DNA from: Pempheris klunzingeri | Lineage: Eukaryota; Chordata; Actinopteri; Acropomatiformes; Pempheridae | Assembly: GCF_042242105.1 (NCBI RefSeq) | Contig: NC_092035.1 | Span: 5,600,977 to 5,664,976 of the forward strand | Reading direction: 5' to 3' | DNA length: 64,000 nt | Part shown: positions 5,349 through 53,384 of the stretch, piece by piece | How the letters are laid out: each line of letters starts with the position of its first letter | Position numbering within the stretch: the first letter of the stretch is position 1 | Notes under the pieces: generated by a model | Databases searched by the model: none | What the model saw: the letters and a program-made list of their open reading frames with translations, nothing else | What the model was told of the DNA's origin: nothing | Program-made: the position numbers and the translations under genes

Positions 5349-8300
5349 TCACAAGTGCTCTGGGTGGTTCTGCAGGCAGGTGATGAACTCTTTCACTTCT
5401 TTGCCCTCAAAGCAGATCTGGTAGACTGCAGAAAACAATGGAAACCTACAGAGGAAAGCAGACTTTTAGACTCATAGAGGCTTTTAGTTTTAGAGGATGC
5501 TTGGTGGGGGCCAGGGGCGGGGGCACACAGCGCAGTGAGCACACGAACTGGAGTGAGGGGGAGAGATGAGAGCGTGAGAGAGTATTGCTACATAGTCAGA
5601 GACTGCAGGCAGGACAGGTGAGAAACACGAGCGACAGAAAACGTAGTGAAATTTGGACACATTTTAATCTAACCGATAGTTCGAGGGCAGAGTGCAGACT
5701 TTGCAAAATTAAAATTTCATATCGGGCAGGCTCCACAAACAACCTGCGCAGATGTGTGTGTACTGTTCACCCATCAATTCAGTTAGAGGAGGAAAGACAA
5801 GCAAGGGAAGCTGCTGTTAATGAAGGTGCCAGTGTGTCTACTGCTCCTACAATGTCTACAGCATCATCCAGGACAACACCACAGACACCAAGACCTACAG
5901 CCCAGAGCTCTATGAGCCAGTAAAACTAAATAATTTAAAATTAATAAAGCAATATAAATAATACATATTCTATATAATGTGTTTTTTGGCACTTGGGAGC
6001 CGAAAGAGCCGCTCTCTAAAAAGAAATTCCCTTCACTAAACAGAATATCACCACACTCTCCTCAGCAGTGAGAACAAATAAGTAGTTTCACTATAACAGA
6101 CTAACTAACTAACTTTGTTTGTTGTCTCCTTGTCTTGAGGCTTATGCTGATGTTAACATTACTGTTCAAAAAGAAGAGAATCACTCAATAAACTTTGTGT
6201 TGTGCTTAATCAACTTTATCACAATATGTTGAGACAAAAATCTGATTTGGGCCTGCAGAGCGACGCTCATTGGCCACTTTATTAGGAACATCTGTGCAAT
6301 CTAATGCGGCTCTTCTGCAACACTGTTGTCTTACACGTCAAACCTATTTGGCTTCTGGAAACACAGTATGCTGTTTCAAATCACACACATTGGTGCAACA
6401 AAGTTTTTGGTTCAGTGTAAACTCGATGACGAGTCTTTTTAACGGTGATCTCCGTGTCAAATCATGTGTTTTCCCACCGAGGTCACTGTTAGTGACCCAT
6501 GGATGAGCATGTACCTCAATAATAAACATTATTCAGTTTAAACTAGTGATTTCTGGCACAGTAGGTCTTTATATAACTACGTGACAGCCAACAGCGCTAC
6601 AGAGTGGACTCACTTGTTGATCATGTCCCTCTTTTGTAGGAGCTTGTAGACCTCAGCGGAGGTCTGTGGACCCTGCAGCTTCTGACCGTTGAGCATTTCT
6701 GCCTCCAGCTCAGCAATGGACTGCAGAAAAAGACATAGAGGGAAAGCTTTAATGTTGTCCTGCTGAGATATTCTGTACAGTATATCTTCATTCCCTCATC
6801 TTTCTTCATGATGTCATGTATAACTTCCCTAAAAGTCCAACAGGACCGGCGGTGAATCCTCCCGTCCGACTCACCTTGGATGTTCTGACAAAGGCCTCTG
6901 CTACTTTGCGGTTCCGTCCTCCGTAGCAGGTGGTGATGAGGTCGGCCACGCCGCAGCTTTCCAGGAAAGTGGTGGAGCTCACTTGGCCATTGCAGAACAA
7001 CTTGGCAAAGGCGACCATCTCCATCAGACCGAGCCGGATCACCGCCGCCTTGGTGTTGTCGCCGAAACCAAGGCCGTCACAGAATCCAGCACCCACTGCC
7101 ACGATGTTCTGGCATGCAACATTTAGCTTTTGATTAAAACAACGATGAAGAAATACCACTTCACATTCACAGTGTGTGGCTGTGTTTACCTTCAGAGCTC
7201 CGCACAGCTCCACCGTGTCACTCTCATGCACGACACTGATGCGAAAGTTGGGGGTCTGGAGCAGCTCTTTGAAGATAAGGCCGCTCGCTTCATTTTTTGC
7301 CCCTGCAACATAAACAGAACACCCCTCAATACTCTTATAACAGAAAAATGAACACTGCTCTTTTCTTAAAGTCTGGCCACCTCATTGCACCCTCTTTTCA
7401 ACCTCAAATCACTTTCTGCAATGAAAGTTTTGTGCTGCTGAACACACACACACACACACAAAAAATTGAGAATAATAAAAAAAAAAACTGTCTAACCGAT
7501 GGTGGTTTCACAGAACTTCTCATCAGCCACCTCGCTGGCGATGTTGGCCCCCATCAGGACGCTGACCTCAATCTCTAGTTTCTCTCGGATGATGTCTGAG
7601 ATGAGCTTTAGTCCATCTGGTCCCTCATCGATACCCTGGATGACAGCAACAATAATAATAAGAGAGAGTTTCTAAGTTTCCGCACTATACTAATGACATA
7701 AAGGTAACAGATACTTTATGTTTCACTGTGGTGATTGGTGTGTTGCTCAACTACAGCTTCCCGTGATGTCTTGGCCACAGAAAGACATGAGGCAACGTCA
7801 GGTGACAATATTTCCCTGCTTCCCCTTTTTGGCTGTCAGGAAATCTGACACGAGGAACAATGCCAGGATCTTACTTTGATCAGTGATATCCCCAGGGTTC
7901 CCTCCGTGACGTGAGGCTTCATCTGATCGCAGAGTTTGCTGATGAACTGGTGTGGGATCACAAAGACGAGGATCTTTGCTCCTTTGACAGCCTCTATGAT
8001 GTCGGGAACAGCGACCTTGTGAGGCATCAACGACAGAGTCGGTCCTTAAACGGTGTTAGCTTTTGTTTTGGGGATAAATTGTGTCACATAAATGGATTTT
8101 GTATCAGAATAAACCCTTTGAGATGTACCATATTGGGACCACATCATTTCAGGTAATTATTATTATTAGTACATTTTAAAGCAAATCCATATCCGTAATA
8201 AAACATATAACGCCAGAGTCAATAGAAAAAAAGCAAAAAAACTGAACTAAAGGAGAAGTGAGGCCTTATTCTTGTTACCTTTAATGAGATTCACCTTTAA

Positions 8301-29521: not shown

Positions 29522-30200
29522 ACTTCAGAGTTAGCTCAGTGAGATGAGCTGACAGGTCATCTGGACACATAGGTTCAAATTGCCACTAAAACGCACACTT
29601 CTTTTTAACTTGCCATCTTTTCTCCTCAGCACTGACAAACACAACAAGTGCAACTTCCAACACACTCTTAAGTTACTTCACAATTAGCTCAATGAGATCA
29701 GGTGCAGACAGGGCATCTGATCACATGGGTTTGAATCCCCTCTGATGCTCTTTACTTTACTTTCCTCTTCAGTGCTGACAAACACAACAAGTACAACTTC
29801 CAAAACATTGCTAAGCAACTTCAGAGTTAGCTCAGTGAGATAAAGAGCTCAAATGTCATCTGGACGCATGGGTTCAAATCCCATTTAGCACTGTTTACTT
29901 TACTTTCCCCCTCAGTGCTGACAAACACAACAAGTACAACTTCCAACACATGATAAAGTAACTTCAGAGTTAGCTCAGTGAGATCAGGAGCTGACAGGTT
30001 AACTCGACCCATGGGTTCAAATCCCCTCTGATGCTCTTTACTTTACTTTCCTCTTCAGTGCTGACAAACACAACAAGTACAACTTCCAACACATGACAAA
30101 GTAACTTCAGAGTTAGCTCAGTGAGATAAGGAGCTGACAGGTCATTTGGACACATGGGTTCAAATCCCCTCTGATGCTCTTTACTGTTTACTTTAAAGTG
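29522..30200 (+). repeat. Tandem array of 143-bp tRNA-like units
   Basis: Units start at 29522, 29675, 29818, 29961 and 30104, spacing 153, 143, 143 and 143. A degenerate unit precedes them from about 29380. Each unit holds TTAGCTCA(G/A)TGAGAT, a match to the pol III A box. About 45 bases later comes GGTTCAAAT(C), or GGTTTGAATCC in one unit, a match to the B box and T-loop. In several units GCTC and GAGC can pair as a D-stem, and TCAGAG near the start can pair with CTCTGA after the B box. The anticodon arm does not fold well, so these are not working tRNA genes. The rest of the unit (GTGCTGACAAACACAACAAG and TACAACTTCCAACAC) is unrelated to tRNA. Confidence 0.8.
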
Positions 30201-31773: not shown

Positions 31774-38129
<6,356 letters not shown>

Positions 38130-40710
38130 AGCATGGCTCGTTGCAACCATCACGAATTCTTTCACCACTGCTTGATTTAAAAGTACCATTAATCATTTAA
38201 TTAATCACACAGTGTCATCAGTGCTGAGTGATCCAAATTCCAAGTTTTTACCACTTGTGCTCACACAGGCATTGTTGTTGTTGAGTTATGTGATTGTACA
38301 ACTTTGCCAAAGAATTCATAAGCTAGCTCAAAAAACAAAGCAGGATCTATGTCATGTTGAAGCATTATGTAGCTGCTGTTAGACAAGTTTGTGCACCATG
38401 TTCTCTCATTTTTCCGAATCTGAAGATCACCAGCGAGATTCTTCACAGCAAAATGTCCGTGTGAACACGATATCCCATAGTTCCTAGCACTGGCATTATA
38501 GAGGGTGCCTTCTTACTGCCTGTGACCATTAAATAAGATTGCATAAGGCACAGTATTTGTCTAGATTTAGTAAAATCCGGTGAGTTTGCAGGATGGACAC
38601 AGATACAGGTCTATGTGTAGTGCACTTATCCTCACCATAAATGCCTGCTGTAAATTAAATTTCGAAGCTTTCCCGGTTCGCAGTGTTGACATCTTGTTTT
38701 AATCACACTGCCTCATTTTACTCAAAGACACTCTGGGGTTCACGAAAAACACTCAGTTATGTCATTATTACAATCAGCTCTGTCAGACAAATTCAAGTTT
38801 TTAAACTCGTGACACAAACTGCTCCTTTATATCGGAGTAAAACACTGATGTACAATATAAAGCTAAGCTGCCATTTTGACTTTATCACACCTGATACTCG
38901 AGGTTTTAAGCCTATAATTATTTTAGAATGCATGAAAACGAATGTTTCTTTGTGTGTATGAAAATATTCTGTGTTTTCCTGTAGAGCTAACATTACGTCA
39001 GCTTCCAGTAGCTGTTAGATAATTTGGTGACTGAATGATTCATTGTCTAATTTTGGAAGGAGCTTTGTGCTGCCAGGTGTAATCACTGTAAGAGACTATT
39101 ACAACAGTAAAACTCCAGGACGTCGACTCCATGATTATGGTTGATCAATATAAGAATCACACCAAAACATCCAGGATGCCAGTGAATGCAATTTATGTGT
39201 AAATTTGGCTCTAAAACACATCATGGTTTGTTTTCTGGGGTTCATTAGTGTGACTGGTGAGTGTGAGACAACTGAAGCAACTCGTGATACAAGAAAGGAG
39301 TGATTTCTGATCGGTCTGAACTGAACAGCTCTGATCTAATATTTGACACAATAGTAAATATTAACAATTTGCAATGTTAAGTTAAAGGGGGCAAAATATT
39401 CTGCTTGGTTGTGCATTACTTTTATTTTCCTTCAGGAATGTACAGTATTGTCCCTTAATTATTTTCTTTTCAACATTAATTCGGTGCCTTGGAGTTTTGC
39501 TTTCACCACCTGTATTCCCAAACCTCTTATTACTTTTGACAAAAATATATCTAGATCCTGATAAACATTACCATGGGAATACTCTTTTGGAATTTGGATG
39601 CAAAACTGAAGAAAGAAAGATGGTCTTAAACAGATTTTTCAATTGGGAATTTAAAAAGAGGACATTCAGGGTCCCCAAAGGGTAAACCTTACTGACTTTG
39701 GTGATCTCACAATTCTCATCAAATATGCGAAAAGAAGTATTTTACTTTGGTAAAATGTCAAACAACAGTGCCGCATAAATATATGTGTCCTCTGCTATTT
39801 GGCAAGGCAGCTTTTGTCTTGTGTCAAATAAAGCACACCACACTTTAATATGAACCCATTTTTTTACACTGGCAACCAATTAAAATTTCAGTGTGTAAAT
39901 ACGACAACAACAGTACTGAAAACTTACAAAATACACTAGCAATATTCACCATGAATTAAAATGGAACTTTGCAGCCACAAATTTGCCATATTTAGTCTTC
40001 CGTACTACTGTAAAACTTTTCACCAATGAGTTCACTTTGTATGTATAAGGCTTAATTCTGTAGCTACATTCATGTGTTCTTTTATATGTATATAGTAAAG
40101 CAGCATTTCACGTATTATGTGGCTGTGGTTTAATTTATTCTGTGCTGTTTTTCTTCCATCTAAAATCAAAAAGGTCTGAGAGGTGCATCAGTGTGTTCAA
40201 GTGACTGCTTGAATGTTGAGTTATTTTAGCCGCTGTCATAGGAGATGTTAGCGATATGAATTTTTTTAGGGTTTGCCTAAAGAGTGAGTGTCTTTTCAAG
40301 GGAGTGTACAACAAGCCTGAGCTTTGTAATTTTAAATGTAGCAACAAGTTGAGCACTTAATCATTCAGTATGCTTACAGGTGAAAATACTTTCTCTCGCT
40401 AGTCATCAGCTCGGAAACACTACGTTACAGCGTACACACTAACACGAGGGGTACTTTGTGAACATTTTGTGATGATAAATTTTGACAAACAAATCAAAGC
40501 TACTGCCACTCCGGTTTTAAAGTGATCTGAATGTATTTGTGTTGATTTTAACGTGTTTTATAGTGTGCTCCTCTTGTGTCTAGCCATCGAACCTCATGGG
40601 CTTTTGTTCCTTCCAGAATGGGCACCTCTTGTGTTTACCTCTGTAATGATGGTAGTGCTATTAGTCTTGCCTTTTTGTGCATTAAATTAATAAACTTACT
40701 TGATACCAAT
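38130..40710 (+). other. fam171b 3' untranslated region
   Basis: No coding signal. AATAAA occurs near 39826 and at 40689-40694; the latter is the likely distal end. It stops just short of the 3' end of the convergent zswim2. Confidence 0.45.
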
Positions 40711-40752
40711 TATTGTTCAAAAGATGCTTTCATTCTTTTCATAAAGCATATA

Positions 40753-40758
40753 TTTTAT
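40753..40758 (-). terminator. polyadenylation signal of zswim2
   Basis: AATAAA on the minus strand about 100 bases past the predicted zswim2 stop at 40860. It lies about 60 bases from the oppositely directed fam171b signal. Confidence 0.45.
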
Positions 40759-40859
40759 TAAGAGGAAGTTTAATTTTAGCAAAATGACTAAAGCAAACAA
40801 ATATAACGGTCACACATGTGACCATTCAGCCCATCTAATATCAAACATTAAGAAACTAT

Positions 40860-43800
40860 TTAAGTCTCAGTCTTTCTCTGGTGTTGTGTGTTTATAAAGA
40901 CCCCAGTCATTCTCAGCTCTGAAATGAGTCTGTTGTTTGTGTCTTTAATGGTCGCCATGCCCGTCTTTGTGGGTTGCAGTCTAGTTCGCCTGACAGGAGA
41001 GGCCACTATGGCTGTGTGATCTGTCTCTGAGGTTCGCAAACCTACAAAAAGGTCCAGCTGTGGTTTGTCTCTGATTTTTGCCACTGCAGCGCACCTGTTA
41101 GGTGAAGCAGGGCTGTGTTTTATAGCACTTAGTTTTCTCTGCAACTGCAACTTCTGTTTGAGATTGAGGCAGAGATTTTATTTCCTTCAGGTGTGTATTT
41201 AAGTAGCCCCTTAGACTGACAGTTATACTCTAGGATGATTGTCATAAATGCTTGCTCAAGAAAATATTACTTCAAGGTTGAATCCGCTATATCTTACTGT
41301 TCGTAAAGCCAGTGGATGCTGTGAGTGGCGGCCCTTGTTTGAGCAGTCTTCACATACAGGTGCTGGTCATATAATTAGAATATCATGAAAAAGTTGATTT
41401 ATTTCAGTAATTCCATTCAAAAAGTGAAGTTTGTATATTATATTCATTCATTACACACAGACTGATATATTTCAAGTGTTTATTTCTTTTAATTTTGATG
41501 ATTATAACTGACAACTAATGAAAAACCCAAATTCAGTATCTCAGAAAATTAGAATATTGTGGAAAGGTTCAATATTGAAGACACCTGGTGCCACACTCTA
41601 ATCAGCTAATTAACTCAAAACACCTGCAAAGGCCTTTAAATGGTCTCTCAGTCTAATTCTGTAGGCTACACAATCATGGGGAAGACTGCTGACCTGACAG
41701 TTGTCCAAAAGACGACCATTGACACCTTGCACAAGGAGGGCAAGACACAAAAGGTCATTGCTAAAGAGGCTGGCTGGTCACAGAGCTCTGTGTCCAAGCA
41801 CATTAATAGAGAGGCGAAGGGAAGGAAAAGATGTGGTAGAAAAAAGTGTACAAGCAATAGGGATAACCGCACCCTGGAGAGGATTGTGAAACAAAACCCA
41901 TTCAAAAATGTGGGGGAGATTCACAAAGAGTGGACTGCAGCTGGAGTCAGTGCTTCAAGAACCACCACGCACAGACGTATGCAAGACATGGGTTTCAGCT
42001 GTCGCATTCCTCGTGTCAAGCCACTCTTGAACAAGAGACAGCGTCACAAGCATCTCGCCTGGGCTAAAGACAAAAAGGACTGGACTGCTGCTGAGTGGTC
42101 CAAAGTTATGTTCTCTGATGAAAGTACATTTTGCATGTCCTTTGGAAATCAAGGTCCCAGAGTCTGGAGGAAGAGAGGAGAGGCACAGAATCCACGTTGC
42201 TTGAAGTTGAGTGTAAAGTTTCCACAGTCAGTGATGGTTTGGGGTGCCATGTCATCTGCTGGTGTTGGTCCACTGTGTTTTCTTAGGTCCAAGGTCAACG
42301 CAGCCGTCTACCAGGAAGTTTTAGAGCACTTCATGCTTCCTGCTGCTGACCAACTTTATGGAGATGCAGATTTCATTTTCCAACAGGACTTGGCACCTGC
42401 ACACAGTGCCAAAGCTACCAGTACCTGGTTTAAGGACCATGGTATCCCTGTTCTTAATTGGCCAGCAAACTCGCCTGACCTTAATCCCATAGAAAATCTA
42501 TGGGGTATTGTGAAGAGGAAAATGCGATACGCCAGACCCAACAATGCAGAAGAGCTGAAGGCCACTATCAGAGCAACCTGGGCTCTCATAACACCTGAGC
42601 AGTGCCAAAGACTGATCGACTCCATGCCACGCCGCATTGCTGCAGTAATTCAGGCCAAAGGAGCCCCAACTAAGTATTGAGTGCTGTACATGCTCATACT
42701 TTTCATGTTCATACCTTTCAGTTGGCCAACATTTCTAGAAATCTTTTTTTTGTATCAGTCTTAAGTAATATTCTAATTTTCCGAGATACTAAATTTGGGT
42801 TTTTCATTAGTTGTCAGTTATAATCATCAAAATTAAAAGAAATAAACACTTGAAATATATCAGTCTGTGTGTAATGAATGAATATAATATACAAATTTCA
42901 CTTTTTGAATGGAATTACTGAAATAAATCAACTTTTTCATGATATTCTAATTATATGACCAGCACCTGTAGATAGAGGTAACTGCAGACTGTGCATCTAA
43001 AAAGATAATAACAGTGATTAAAGGAGACATTTTCCATAAATTTTTCTAATTTGCCCTATTTATTTAGTTATGATTGCCACTTGCTTACTTGAAACACTTG
43101 CCAGTGACAGGGCAGACCCGGCAGCTGTGGCAGAGAACTCCCAGGTGTCTGTCTGGCTTCTCTCTTTCAGCAGCGGTGAAGAGCCTCGCTGCGTTTCTCA
43201 CCTGCTCCTGGAGTAACTTCAAAGAGCTGAAGTCCTCCCTGCACAGAGGGCATTTCACAGTTTCTTCCCTGTCTGAGAGTCTCTGGTGATCCGCCCACAC
43301 CCTCATGCAAGAGACGTGGATGTTATTCCCACAACCGAACCTGAAAGAGACAAAGACAGTACATGAGGGCGCAGAAAATCTGTCTGCACAACGCTGAGAA
43401 AAACATTTCCTACATCATGTCTTTGGGTTTGAATGAAATGTCCTCTTCTAGGAATATCAGGAAACTTGGACCTAAATTTACATCTGAAAATCTGTGCTGT
43501 ATGCCAACAGCTGGATGTGCTGGGTTGGAGCTAATAATGCTGTATGAGGTCATGTTAAGGCCATTAGTGCAACAAAAGTTGACAAGAACATATTATATCA
43601 TCTTGAAACATGACTGTACTGAAACAATAACAGTGTGAAACCCCGACCCCAGTCTGACCACACACCTGCAGTAAGACACAGGCTGTTTTTTCTCCAGCAG
43701 CTCTTCTTGACAGATAGGACACGCATCCTGGGCTTGGATCACTTTCCGGCAGACACTTCCAGCCTCCCGGCCCGTGAGTGGTTGGCTCAGTGTTCGAGAA

Positions 43801-45188
43801 GCAGCAGGAGGATAATTTTCCGTCCGGTGGACTTTGGTTTGGTGTAAACCATGGAGCACCTCCAAGATCTGTCTCTCTACAAGCCCATGCTGAAATGAAT
43901 CTAGAGCAGAGTTATTCTTAGCTTTGCATGTCAACAGGAGCACATGCACAAGGGTCGGTCAGTTCTTTCAAAACGCCTACGAAGCAAATGTTTCATTGTT
44001 AAAAATGAAATACACACACAGGATTAAACATTAATAAATCAGCATTGTGGTGTCCATATAAGCGGAATTGCATCATGGCTCTGAAGCTAAATGTTGGGTG
44101 TAATCAGGGTTTTGATGATCATTAATTTTACTGTACTTTTCTTTGTCATGAACCAATCAAATCAGACCATAAAAGAGCCTTTTGTCAAATGTCTTTTTCA
44201 AGATGATGTAACTGAATAGAAAGTTACAGCATGCAATCATGTAGAAAAATAGTTAACATAACTTACATTCATGTTCTCGGGGAAGCCTGAATTTCCGCAG
44301 TAAAACCCTGTAAAGATAAAGATTAAAGGTTCATTCAAGAGTTAATAGCATGAACATAAAAGTCTGTCATTACTGGGCCTGGACATCATTAAAAATGTTA
44401 TAATATATTGTAGGGGTGTTTTACAAAAAGTAAAACTGAAAATGTCCAGAGAGTACTGAGGCTAGATATCAGTTATTAGGCCCATCGTTTCCATAACAAA
44501 TGGTCTACCTCATTATGTTGATTTTCTGTACTTGTTTCCTACATAAACTGTATAATAAAGAAAATAAAGTTTTCTTCCCAAACTGTATTACATGCAACCA
44601 AATCTAATGGATAAATAAAATACCATTGTTCACCTCACAATGCTGCACATACATGATAAAAAAATAAATATTTATTTGGCTAAAAGCTCCTGCTGTGTTC
44701 ATATTTTATGTGTGTGTGCTACTGATACCAGCAGATGTGTTTGCATGGCTCCTGCTCCTTGGTGAACACAGGGCAAGTGCACGTATGTGGGTCACCCAAG
44801 CACACCTGAAAAACATGAACAAGAGAACATGCTGAAGGATGCAAAACATTTCTTATGAGTTTGAGCAATACCCCGAATCAAAGAACAATTTACCTTGAAG
44901 TTTCTGGTCTCTCCCTCCTCTCTGAGCAGGAACCCTGTCGGGCCGAAGGATTTCAGCAGAAATATCGTTGTGGTCCCTATGAAAGTCCAAAATGAGGGTT
45001 TTGTCCACAGTGAAAGAGGGGGGAATCCAGGACCTCTCTTCTCTCTACAAAATAAAACAGGAAATGACAAGACAACATGAGACGAGACAAAAACGGAACT
45101 AGACAAAATACAGGATCATGACAGCTTGGTCTTGGTGCAGACTCACTGCAGCGCTGACTGTGTTCCTCCAGGCAGGTTTTTTGAACAT
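40860..45188 (-). CDS. zswim2: ZSWIM2 E3 ubiquitin ligase, coding exon split by Tc1
   Basis: Mammalian ZSWIM2 is a testis-expressed E3 ligase with SWIM, RING and ZZ fingers. Exons read on the minus strand: 45123-45188 (ends SLHQDQA), 44894-44976 (GPTGFLLREEGE), 44729-44805 (SWIM finger, CTCPVFTKEQEPCKHICW), 44268-44307, 43666-43889 and 43089-43340 (RING, CPICQEELLEKK to VKCPLCREDF). Then comes an exon made of 42971-42996 plus 41298-41356, interrupted by a Tc1 element. The last exon runs from about 41130-41160 to the stop at 40860. Across the insertion site the text reads CTVCSYLYLCEDC, a ZZ finger, with one TA target copy kept. Two oddities remain. The donor after SLHQDQA (GTCATG) is weak and leaves the phase wrong for the next exon. 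The second RING finger of mammalian ZSWIM2 is not found. This allele probably makes no normal protein. Confidence 0.8.
41357..41557 (+). repeat. Left terminal inverted repeat of Tc1
   Basis: It begins CAGGTGCTGGTCATATAATT and ends AAAATTAGAATATT. It pairs with 42767-42968. Confidence 0.9.
41676..42680 (+). CDS. Tc1 transposase (DD34E)
   Basis: It cuts and pastes its own element at TA sites. The frame gives 334 codons from ATG at 41676 (MGKTADL); an in-frame ATG at 41640 lies upstream but outside the family's usual start. The N-terminal half holds helix-turn-helix folds (VIAKEAGWSQSSVSKHI) and a basic GRKRCGRKK stretch. The catalytic triad is visible: Asp in FSDEST, Asp in FQQDLAPAH and Glu in NPIENLWG, with 34 residues between the last two. 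There is no stop or frameshift. Length is typical for the family (about 340). It is coded antisense to zswim2. Whether it is active cannot be told from sequence. Confidence 0.95.
   Translation: MGKTADLTVVQKTTIDTLHKEGKTQKVIAKEAGWSQSSVSKHINREAKGRKRCGRKKCTSNRDNRTLERIVKQNPFKNVGEIHKEWTAAGVSASRTTTHRRMQDMGFSCRIPRVKPLLNKRQRHKHLAWAKDKKDWTAAEWSKVMFSDESTFCMSFGNQGPRVWRKRGEAQNPRCLKLSVKFPQSVMVWGAMSSAGVGPLCFLRSKVNAAVYQEVLEHFMLPAADQLYGDADFIFQQDLAPAHSAKATSTWFKDHGIPVLNWPANSPDLNPIENLWGIVKRKMRYARPNNAEELKATIRATWALITPEQCQRLIDSMPRRIAAVIQAKGAPTKY
42767..42968 (-). repeat. Right terminal inverted repeat of Tc1
   Basis: The reverse complement of 41357-41557 with about three differences by eye. It ends at GACCAGCACCTG followed by TA. 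Confidence 0.9.
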
Positions 45189-49026: not shown

Positions 49027-52000
49027 ATGATGATCCGAGCACAGATGGATGTAAACTGCTTCATGGTCCTGCTGGTGCTGTGCGCCCTCAATAAGGTAGC
49101 GGGTGGATCTGTGCCCTAGTTTGCCTGAAATGTGCTGTTTTAGTATGTTTATGTTGCCTCACCCTTGGTTTTAAGATAACATAAGATAAGATAACATAAA
49201 ATAATCTAACATAAAATAACATAACATAACATAACATAAATTTGTGATTAAAAGTATGAAATAATGACAGACGTTTTATTTTGTTCTACTACATTTTGTT
49301 TTTAGCTGTTTAGGTTTCTGGGTTTCCTGTTTTTTGACCACACATTGGTAACATCTGTTCTGTTTTTAGAATATTTATAACCATAACTAAATTCATACAG
49401 CGTCTGCAGTTCTTCACCCCTAACACGCAGCACTCTGCCCCGTCCTGTCATTTCAAACCCTTCACTTGATTGGCTATATACTCTAATCCTCCTGATGCAG
49501 CCATTAAAGGGCAACTCCACTGATTTAGCATTGCACTACCTTAAAGTAGAGGGACTTATAAGAGACAGATTAAAAAAAGAAAAACTCAAAATTGTAGTGG
49601 CAGAGGCTGAGATACACAAACTTTTAGGTGCTGATATGGGTAAAACCTGATCCTACACTTCCCATAATGCAACATGAGAGCATCTCTGCCTACCTGGTTC
49701 ATGTGTCAATACCACTTCTGTAATATTTCCATATTTACTTTGAAACAGTTGCTATAGATATACTCCAATAAAAGTGCATTAAAATGATCTATATCATGTA
49801 TTTTATCATCTTAAATTCCCATTTGTTATCACTTCAGAGTTGTAGTCTCATTATGTGTTTTATGTTTGTGTGTCTGTGTGTGGTGCTGAATTTCAATGGC
49901 CTCAACAGCTTGTGTTGGCGAACCCTGAAGATGACTATGACGAGCATCTGAACCACCGGGGCGAACACACGTCGACAAGGAACCAAATCGCCACAGCCCA
50001 GTACGAATGTTTCCAGCGGATTGTGAAAGAATCACACAAAACAAACGGTAACAAACCACCATATCTCAGAAAGCATGCATTTTTTTTTTATGTCAATGTT
50101 ATCCATCACATATATATATTTATACTGCAACAACATGTTTCTACGTGTGTCAGCAGAGCCGCAGTGCAACACGACGTGGGATGGGTGGCTGTGCTGGGAT
50201 GAAAGTGAAGCTGGAACAATAGAGCAGAGCTGTCCAGACTATTATAAAGACTTTGACCCTCGTGGTAAACGTCCTTTTGCCATCTATGACTTTTGTCACT
50301 CCAGTAACAGCACATTAACCTTTACTTACTTTATAAACCTTTTATATTTTGGTGTAATGTTGAGCTGAGACAATAAGTGTGGACATTTATTTAAAAAGAC
50401 TTTACATGATATGTATTTTTTAAAACTATTCAGCTAGCTCTCTGATTATGGTTAAGACAATGTGAACTTTCTTTTATTTTCTTCCTGAGAGTCATTTGTG
50501 AAGACTGATGCCACTTTTGTGTCTGTGTGCTAACCAGAAAGCAGTCCAGATGTGGTTAGCTGAGCATAAAGACTAGCAGAAAGGCTCTCCAAAGTTTAAA
50601 AATGCATTTGAAGAGCAGTAATTGACATGCTCTATATCGTTTGTTTAATTTGTACACAAACAGAAATGTAAAAACAATGTAAATGTGAAAGCAGAAATGT
50701 AAAATTGTGATTTTAGGGAGATTAAATGTTGAAGAGCTTTTGAAGAAAGCCAGGTCAGATGAGAGTCGCATCAATCTCTCAAAAATTAAATGAATGAGAG
50801 TATTTCCCAATAAGCTAAGTAGGCCAGTCTCATATCGTCAGCATAGAATATTCAAAAGAGAAACAGCATGTTTTACTTCTCTTCACACCTGCTTCTTGAT
50901 CTCAAATTCACAGCGGTGGCATCCAAAGTCTGCACAGAGACAGGCGAGTGGGGACGCCACCCAGAGAGCAACAGGACATGGACGAACTTCACAAACTGCA
51001 AAGCCAACACCACACATCACGGCACAGTAAGGAGGATTAACAGCAGTTTAGAAATAAAGACGGACGCTGCGTGAAGCAGTTTGTAAAGTTGTGCTCATTT
51101 TGCTTTCTTGCAGGCAGCGATGACTCACTTCTACTTGGTTATGATTGGTCACGGTCTGTCGCTGGTATCGTTGCTTATATCATTGGGGATATTCTTCCAT
51201 TTTAAGTAAGTGTGGTACAACTTTCCCTTTTCTAATGTCTACATGTATGAAAAGCATATGTTTTCAAGGTTGTGAAATATGAAAAGCATCTTGGTAAATA
51301 AAACAAATTGTTTTACGAGTGTGTAAAATGATTTAATACCTCTTTTCAATAAAGCTTACTCCTAACTCGCCAGGGTTGCTGCAGCTATAAATATTAGTAA
51401 ATCATTATTATTCCACAAGTATCTGGAGTTATGCATGTCAATAAATTGTCAGTTAACTGGATTTTGGTGCAGATGCTCAACATGTCCTCCAGATGCTACT
51501 ACAAATAGAGAAAGTGGGCGAATGAACACTAGATTTTAAGGCCCTCTTACACAGTGCTAATATCTTTAAAGCATTAATGAATCAATTAGTTATACCTAAT
51601 AAGGCTTGTAGTTACTTTATACTGTGTTCACTTTTTATATTGTTGCCTTGTCTCAGTTCAGTTATTCTTTAAGTTGTCAGATTCATCTAATGAGTGCCTC
51701 CTCTTCCTCAGGAGTCTGAGCTGCCAGAGGATAACACTCCACAAAAACCTCTTCCTCTCCTTCGTGCTAAACTCACTCATCACCGTCGTCTGGCTCACAA
51801 CAGTGGTGAAGAAACAGGGACACACGTATAACGATTCAGTGAGTGGTTCATATTTCTGTATCTGATGCTGAATCTGCCCGGATATTATTTTTTCAGCAAA
51901 GACGTGGCGGCTCATGTTTCTTTTTTTGCTTCCAGGCAAGCTGTAAGCTGCTCATGTTCATCCACCTGTACTTGCTGAGCTGCAACTATTTCTGGATGCT

Positions 52001-53384
52001 TTGTGAGGGCATCTACCTGCACACGCTGATTGTTGTGGCCGTGTTTGCAGAAAAGCAGCATCTCATGTGGTATTATCTCCTGGGGTGGGGTAAGTAAGCA
52101 TTTCTGTAACTGTTTCATTATGCACATTTGATTGTCATACACCAAAATGTCATAAATGTTGAAATGCAGGTTTCCCACTCGTGCCGGCGGTGATACATTC
52201 AATAGCACGACACTGCTACTATAACGACAAGTGAGTCCTCCAGATCATCAGATAGACAGAAGATATCACTATAAGTGTTGTGTTTCCACTCTAAACTAAA
52301 ACTATCTCCTCCATGCATTCACAGATGTTGGGTCAGCTCAGATACTTCCCTGCTCTACATCATCCACGGCCCCATCTGCGCCGCGTTGGTGGTAAGTAAC
52401 AAGCTAATGTGGGACATCCAGAGGTACTTTTCACTAAAGACAAACAACCACAACATAAAGTTTTTCTTTCCAGGTGAATCTTTTCTTCCTGCTCAACATT
52501 GTTCGGGTCCTCATCACCAAGCTGAGGGTGACGCACCAGGCCGAGTCCAGCCTTTACATGAGAGCGGTGAGAGCCACCCTCATCCTCATCCCTCTGCTCG
52601 GCATCCAGTTTGTCCTGCTCCCCTACAAGCCCCAGGATCACTGGGTCTTTGAGATCTACATGTACATCATGGAAATCCTCATGCACTACCAGGTCAGTAC
52701 ATACACATCCAATGCTGCCAATAACACATGCAAAAAACATGACCAAATACTGACAAAAATCACTACCACGACGGTGGTTTAAAATGACAAATATCTCAAG
52801 ATTAAGAGCATGAACGTGTGTCACTGTAAACCTCTGACGGTTCTTGTGCAGCTGTTTAAGCTTAAAGGATTTCCTGTCTTGTGCATTTTCTCAAGAAACC
52901 TTTTTTTCCACATGCAGGGTTTCCTGGTTTCTACAATATTCTGCTTCTTCAACGGGGAGGTGAGTAATGAGCTGCATTCAGCATTGATATTGATACTGGT
53001 AGCATCTCTCTAGATCAAGGTTAGATTTTGCTACCTGTTTTAGGTGTGACAGACAGAGTTGGTGCCTGCATAGTACACTACCAGGGAAACATTTTAAAGG
53101 GCTAATACTGAAATCTTATTCATTTCTTATTATTTATAGAATATATTAAGAAAGAACATTTGTGTCCCCTCTTGCAGGTCCAGAGTGTCCTGCGAAGGCA
53201 CTGGAATCAACAGCGGATGCAGTTTGCTGGCACGTTCGCCAATGCCGACTTCTTCCGCTCAGCCTCCTACGTGACATCGTCGCTCACGGAGGTCCACCGC
53301 TGCTACAGCATCGAAAGCCACACTGAGCACATGAACGGCAAGAGCTACTCAGACATATTCAGATCGGACAGCCCTTTCGTGTGA
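49027..53384 (+). CDS. calcrl: Calcitonin receptor-like receptor (class B GPCR)
   Basis: With RAMP partners it forms receptors for CGRP and adrenomedullin at the plasma membrane and signals mainly through Gs. Twelve coding exons join in frame to 465 codons (human 461): 49027-49095, 49909-50047, 50157-50264, 50914-51026, 51114-51205, 51712-51838, 51936-52089, 52170-52230, 52325-52391, 52474-52692, 52918-52959, 53178-53384. A signal peptide ([11 protein letters not shown]) is followed by the hormone-binding ectodomain with its cysteines and the WDGWLCWD motif. N-glycosylation sites follow in NRTW and NFTN. Seven membrane spans follow, with family phrases [63 protein letters not shown] and FCFFNGEVQ. 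The gene matches CALCRL rather than CALCR. Teleosts often keep two copies (a and b); which one this is cannot be said. Confidence 0.95.
49170..49240. repeat. AACAT pentamer minisatellite
   Basis: Tandem ATAACATAA- and AACAT-type units in the second intron of calcrl. Simple expansion, no other signal. Confidence 0.7.
50535..50665 (+). mobile_element. Fragment of the 55-kb MITE family
   Basis: GTGGTTAGCTGAGCATAAAG, GACTAGCAGAAAGG and TTGTTTAATTTGTACACAAA match the interior of the element at 55139-55452 (TTAGCTTAGCATAAAGACTG and GCTTGTTTAATTTG). It is a truncated copy in intron 4 of calcrl. Confidence 0.5.

Follow-up and report, generated by a model that had tools for sequence, protein, structure and literature searches.

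In medaka, the DNA transposon Tol2 has inserted naturally into the tyrosinase gene, with a visible phenotype. Tol2 belongs to a different superfamily from Tc1, and its likeness to the case described here lies in the natural insertion into a fish gene. A Tc1 within a coding exon has been described in C. elegans, where the rsd-3(pk2013) allele carries a 1.6-kb element and a partly functional product is possible (PMC4910058). According to the excerpted text of that report, the cDNA product was nearly wild-type in size, three of the five sequenced clones had lost most of the element and kept the frame, and the authors left open whether splicing or excision was responsible, citing Rushforth and Anderson (1996) on the splicing of Tc1. 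Among fishes, Tc1/mariner elements of the DD34E type, such as Group 1 Tc1/DTSsa1, carry a Tc1-type transposase and occur as several near-identical copies (PMC3516227, in excerpt). As for the host gene, the excerpted text of a mouse knockout study gives Zswim2-null males as fertile, with litter sizes and sperm measures as in controls (PMC9277888). No title on a fish or transposon allele was seen among the zswim2 matches listed in our literature search, and the matches listed on Tc1-like exon insertions in fish concerned transposon tools, mutagenesis screens and cancer. Nothing in the literature searched described a need for ZSWIM2 outside mice.

We analysed a window of 64,000 nucleotides (the whole stretch of DNA studied) from Pempheris klunzingeri, in which a Tc1 element lies within exon 7 of zswim2. 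The best explanation, to which we assign a probability of roughly 0.8, is that a young Tc1 copy, its transposase still open, entered this exon at a TA and split a zinc finger, so that the allele is most likely null or a hypomorph. The locus resembles rsd-3(pk2013) in having a Tc1 in a coding exon; the worm allele was tested on cDNA, whereas the zswim2 insertion is natural, comes from one assembly and is antisense to its gene (PMC4910058, in excerpt). As in the mouse knockout, zinc-finger parts of the same gene are lost; the mouse allele is an engineered deletion in fertile animals, whereas the fish case is natural and was read from sequence alone (PMC9277888, in excerpt). The event is of an ordinary kind, is cleanly documented and indicates no new mechanism. 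Since mice lose the gene without sterility, the insertion has the look of a familiar sort of natural gene disruption. The features of the locus are as follows, in window coordinates.

36783..38129, plus strand: last coding part of the neighbour fam171b (FAM171 C-terminal domain, 2.5e-37)
40860..41153, minus strand: coding part of the last zswim2 exon, placed by frame and position; second acceptor at 41094
41298..41354, minus strand: second half of zswim2 exon 7, 57 nt (splice sites, frame)
41355..41356, no strand: TA target-site copy, low-coordinate side (direct inspection)
41357..42968, plus strand: complete Tc1 element, CAGGTG...CACCTG, 1612 bp (ends, repeats, genome comparison)
41357..41558, plus strand: inverted repeat, low-coordinate side, 202 bp (3 mismatches against the other arm)
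41676..42680, plus strand: open transposase frame of 334 aa, DD34E type, antisense to zswim2 (domains, open reading frame)
42767..42968, minus strand: inverted repeat, high-coordinate side, 202 bp (arm comparison)
42969..42970, no strand: TA target-site copy, high-coordinate side (direct inspection)
42969..42996, minus strand: first half of zswim2 exon 7, 28 nt including one TA (splice sites, frame)
43089..43340, minus strand: zswim2 exon 6, end of the RING and start of the ZZ-like finger (splice sites, protein search, alignment)
43666..43900, minus strand: zswim2 exon 5, start of the RING (splice sites, alignment)
44267..44307, minus strand: zswim2 exon 4 (splice sites, alignment)
44729..44805, minus strand: zswim2 exon 3, SWIM core, donor ctg/GTATCA (splice sites, alignment, Pfam)
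44894..45044, minus strand: zswim2 exon 2, 5' end uncertain, at 45044 or 44976 (splice sites, alignment)
45112..45188, minus strand: zswim2 exon 1, ATG at 45188, donor weak and uncertain (frame, alignment)
50027..52782, plus strand: family-B receptor exons, called calcrl by position only (HRM, 5.4e-11, and 7tm_2, 1.5e-14, at either end)

The element shows the structure of a Tc1/mariner transposon of the DD34E type, namely a TA duplication, terminal inverted repeats, and HTH and DDE domains in which 34 residues separate the second D from the E. The transposase reads 334 aa from an inner ATG at 41676 within a frame open from 41640 (346 aa), contains zero stops and matches DDE_3 (3.3e-18) and HTH_Tnp_Tc3_2 (8.8e-13). 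A preliminary description of this DNA had proposed a Tc1 of 1612 bases with an exact TA duplication, inverted repeats with about three differences per 200 positions and an open transposase frame; the coordinates confirm the length and the duplication, the frame is free of stops, and the repeats, which measure 202 bp (204 with the TAs), differ at 3 positions. By its structure the element is assigned to DD34E only and not to a named family; it shares its Tc1-type transposase and several near-identical copies with the fish elements noted above (PMC3516227, in excerpt). Pattern matching against viral and prokaryote contigs gave 5 and 20 candidate relatives of the transposase, none of which tblastn confirmed, and neither Rfam at gathering scores nor a tRNA scan gave a match over the window.

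The insertion site was defined from the two halves of exon 7. On the minus strand, the acceptor TTTTTAG stands immediately ahead of 42996 and the donor GTAAGA runs from 41297; both the KCTVCSYLYL half and the second half reported earlier were found again at these sites. With the element and one TA taken out, the halves of 28 and 57 nt give an exon of 85 nt and join in frame as ...GKCFKCTVCSYLYL/CEDCSNKGRHSQHPLALRT. The element thereby separates the KCxxC half of a ZZ-like finger from its CxxC half. The cysteines and histidines of this finger align with the ZZ of an approximate human ZSWIM2 sequence; the piece across the join scored E 0.0052 and 17.0 bits against Pfam ZZ, under the cut-off of 21.4, while a shorter piece gave E 0.071 and zf-UBR scored slightly above ZZ (E 0.0029). 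A scan of the whole 403-aa chain against Pfam listed neither ZZ nor zf-UBR. Hence, of the earlier statement that the two halves of a ZZ finger join in frame, the join stands, while the ZZ match stays under the Pfam cut-off.

An error of assembly that placed the element in the exon is conceivable, yet the TA copies are precise, both ends of the element are complete and the window copy is distinct from every one of the 25 aligned copies, so that we regard such an artefact as very improbable. A TA was likewise found on both sides of each of the 22 other copies whose end-to-end alignment reached 96% or more. The open span across the window site is 61 codons, against 25–100 at the sites of 23 other copies, some of which duplicate one another. 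As it falls inside this range, the open span alone is no evidence of coding. The GC content around the window site (0.36) also lies within the 0.23–0.48 of the same partly duplicated sites, and the idea of a site unusual in either respect was rejected.

The identity of the host gene rests on overall homology and on its neighbours, as a second RING was not found. The eight-exon model from 45188 to 40860, with the element and one TA removed, comprises 403 stop-free codons; its seven introns are all GT-AG, the last being 144 bp long. Homology to ZSWIM2 shows more clearly over the whole chain than at the finger. The chain matches Pfam SWIM at 3.2e-7 (30.2 bits, above the cut-off of 19.6) and Pfam RING at 7.1e-6 (26.6 bits, against a cut-off of 27.3), and it aligns with the RING1 of the approximate human sequence. 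Against that ZSWIM2 sequence, 129 of 307 aligned columns were identical, and the last exon gave no significant match to this sequence. In the human gene order ZSWIM2 has FAM171B and CALCRL as neighbours; here, judged by domains, fam171b and a family-B receptor stand in the same order. The first splice junction is doubtful: exons 1 and 2 are without a good in-frame splice pair that preserves the alignment to the approximate human sequence, and the junction that stays open depends on a weak donor (-4.0) and brings in some 26 extra residues.

The age of an insertion can be judged from the substitutions that its copy alone carries. We took 38 further Tc1 copies from the same 646-Mb assembly; the search scored 40 of 119 candidates, so that copy counts are lower bounds. 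The 25 copies with >1500 bp in one aligned piece, together with the window copy, formed the counting set of 26, and 13 were omitted, of which 12 were shorter or in pieces and one was long but at 79% identity. Set against these 25 copies, from the 40 scored of the 119 candidates, the window copy carries 3 private substitutions over its 1612 sites. A tree built from 23 of the 26 rows, three ragged copies being omitted, gave it an end branch of 0.0039, and its nearest relatives among the 25 differ at 8/1602 and 11/1612 sites. One of its inverted-repeat mismatches is private, and the other two are present in 13 and in 4 of the 26 copies, the window copy counted. These two were therefore inherited, which makes repeat similarity a poor clock here. 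Thus, the recency claimed earlier is upheld by the private substitutions, while its dating by repeat mismatches is weakened, two of the three being inherited. The Tc1 copies of this genome are young, and few private substitutions are better evidence of this than similar repeats. At a neutral rate of 2–10 changes per billion sites a year, the insertion would be roughly 0.2–2 million years old, which is a coarse estimate.

Such youth, as seen in the private substitutions and the end branch, would also suit an allele that is rare or confined to the sequenced fish. The assembly shows no other haplotype, which neither supports nor excludes this reading, and we hold it to be a serious possibility a little short of even. 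The locus from 42971 to 44350 matched the genome once, at itself, and a second zswim2 or an alternative haplotype in this assembly was accordingly rejected. If the insertion is polymorphic, it offers a ready genetic test; if it is fixed in the species, this would suggest that fishes too may do without an intact ZSWIM2.

The integrity of the transposase was then compared across the family. A full-length frame is present in three of the 26 copies, the window copy included, and a disabling 10-bp deletion is common to 16 of them. A protein search of the genome at ≥90% identity recovered the same three open frames and one 4 codons shorter, which belongs to an element whose far end is missing; open frames also occur in a number of more distant copies (<75% identity). 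As this search scored 120 of 5298 candidates, the open-frame counts are lower bounds. Two of the private substitutions alter residues 34 and 178 of the window transposase and may affect it; with its frame open, the enzyme may or may not be active. The insertion is a marker of recent Tc1 activity in the genome.

Two groups of copies share their flanks. Two loci on contig C15 (at ∼562.6 and ∼711.3 kb) have 302/302 and 299/302 flanking bases in common and are therefore probably one insertion that was duplicated; the 10-bp deletion is found in just one of the two, for which gene conversion is a possible cause. Four copies on contig C23 (13.90–13.93 Mb) form a cluster whose left flanks, in the four pairs that were aligned, agree at 300–301 of 302 positions, and local duplication has probably multiplied Tc1 there without transposition.

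Reading-frame outcomes were derived for the transcripts that the disrupted exon could give. When the element is retained, translation continues for 5 codons (QVLVI) and then meets a stop, which precedes the last intron; a premature stop in this position predicts nonsense-mediated decay. Transcripts retaining the element would thus be degraded or would yield a truncated protein with SWIM and RING. Skipping of exon 7 to the acceptor at 41153, the one required by the frame of the empty site, shifts the frame and runs into a stop 7 codons further on. With 41094 as the acceptor the frame is kept, giving a protein of 355 aa that lacks the finger's second half. The proposal that exon skipping tolerates the insertion thus agrees with the frame at 41094 and not with that at 41153. 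Under the preferred explanation, the allele would be null, or a hypomorph producing the shorter protein through exon skipping.

Splicing might also tolerate the insertion, either by this jump from exon 6 to 41094 or by removal of the element as an intron. The acceptor at 41094 scores 2.6 against -0.2 for 41153, on a crude scale built on approximate base frequencies. The exon and element together contain 98 donors and 102 acceptors, of whose pairings 14 excise the element in frame; 13 of these drop the CEDC pair. The remaining one, with a donor after 42983 and an acceptor at 41362, reads KCTVC-TPV-CEDCSNKGRHSQH and keeps both cysteine pairs, TPV replacing SYLYL in a loop two residues shorter. 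The in-frame cDNA clones of the worm allele (3/5; PMC4910058, in excerpt) point in the same direction. Against this, the best excision scores only -0.5, and the finger-keeping pairing scores ≤ -10.0 for its two sites together, outside the best 12. Restoration of the finger by splicing out the element was rejected on account of these very poor sites, and tolerance by splicing as a whole appears unlikely.

The insertion is a clean candidate for a natural knockout of a male-germline ubiquitin ligase gene; in both mouse and human, ZSWIM2 is testis-specific. The earlier emphasis on a conserved, testis-linked ligase is borne out as to the disruption and loses its weight as to conservation, given that null mice are fertile and that the second RING was not found. 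The case for damage to an important gene is accordingly weak, the doubtful first splice junction counting against it as well, and loss of function may have been tolerated through dispensability of ZSWIM2.

It is also possible, if tentative, that zswim2 in this lineage was decaying or reduced before the Tc1 arrived, and that the element hit a gene under little or no constraint. In keeping with this, Pfam found no RING in the three gene-strand frames of 38131–41297 (bar about 46 residues), between exon 7 and fam171b, and exons 1 and 2 meet only at the weak donor. A RING-H2 pattern fitting the approximate human RING2 had no stop-free match in the six frames of the window, and the same human RING2 as a genome query gave 21 matches, with contig C24 not among them. 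The control query, RING1-ZZ of the approximate human sequence, found contig C24 at 1.2e-25 through exon 6 only and failed to recover the short stretches in exons 5 and 7. The pattern also fails on zswim2's own first RING, so that a RING2 that is split or has diverged could have escaped notice. Moreover, fishes may normally be without RING2 in ZSWIM2, and a gene that lacks it or has an odd first intron may be normal for this fish group. The eight exons do join in an open frame, which is weak evidence against prior decay: about 0.1–0.2 stops are expected in the 1212-nt frame at 0.0019–0.0039 changes per site, and with so few expected the open frame does not show that zswim2 still works.

The orientation of the element allows one further reading. 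Germ-line read-through zswim2 pre-mRNA would hold a full antisense Tc1 copy with 202-nt hairpin arms, and could in principle be a small-RNA source that restrains the whole family and is retained for that effect. If so, the insertion would have been kept for restraining Tc1 and not for the uselessness of zswim2; we consider this highly improbable.

Two other features of the window were recorded. Four tandem copies of a 143-bp unit occupy 29617–30194, downstream of sodium-symporter exons. An open frame at 5570–5920 contains a BED zinc finger (3.6e-7) and is perhaps a remnant of a hAT-type transposon or a gene derived from one.
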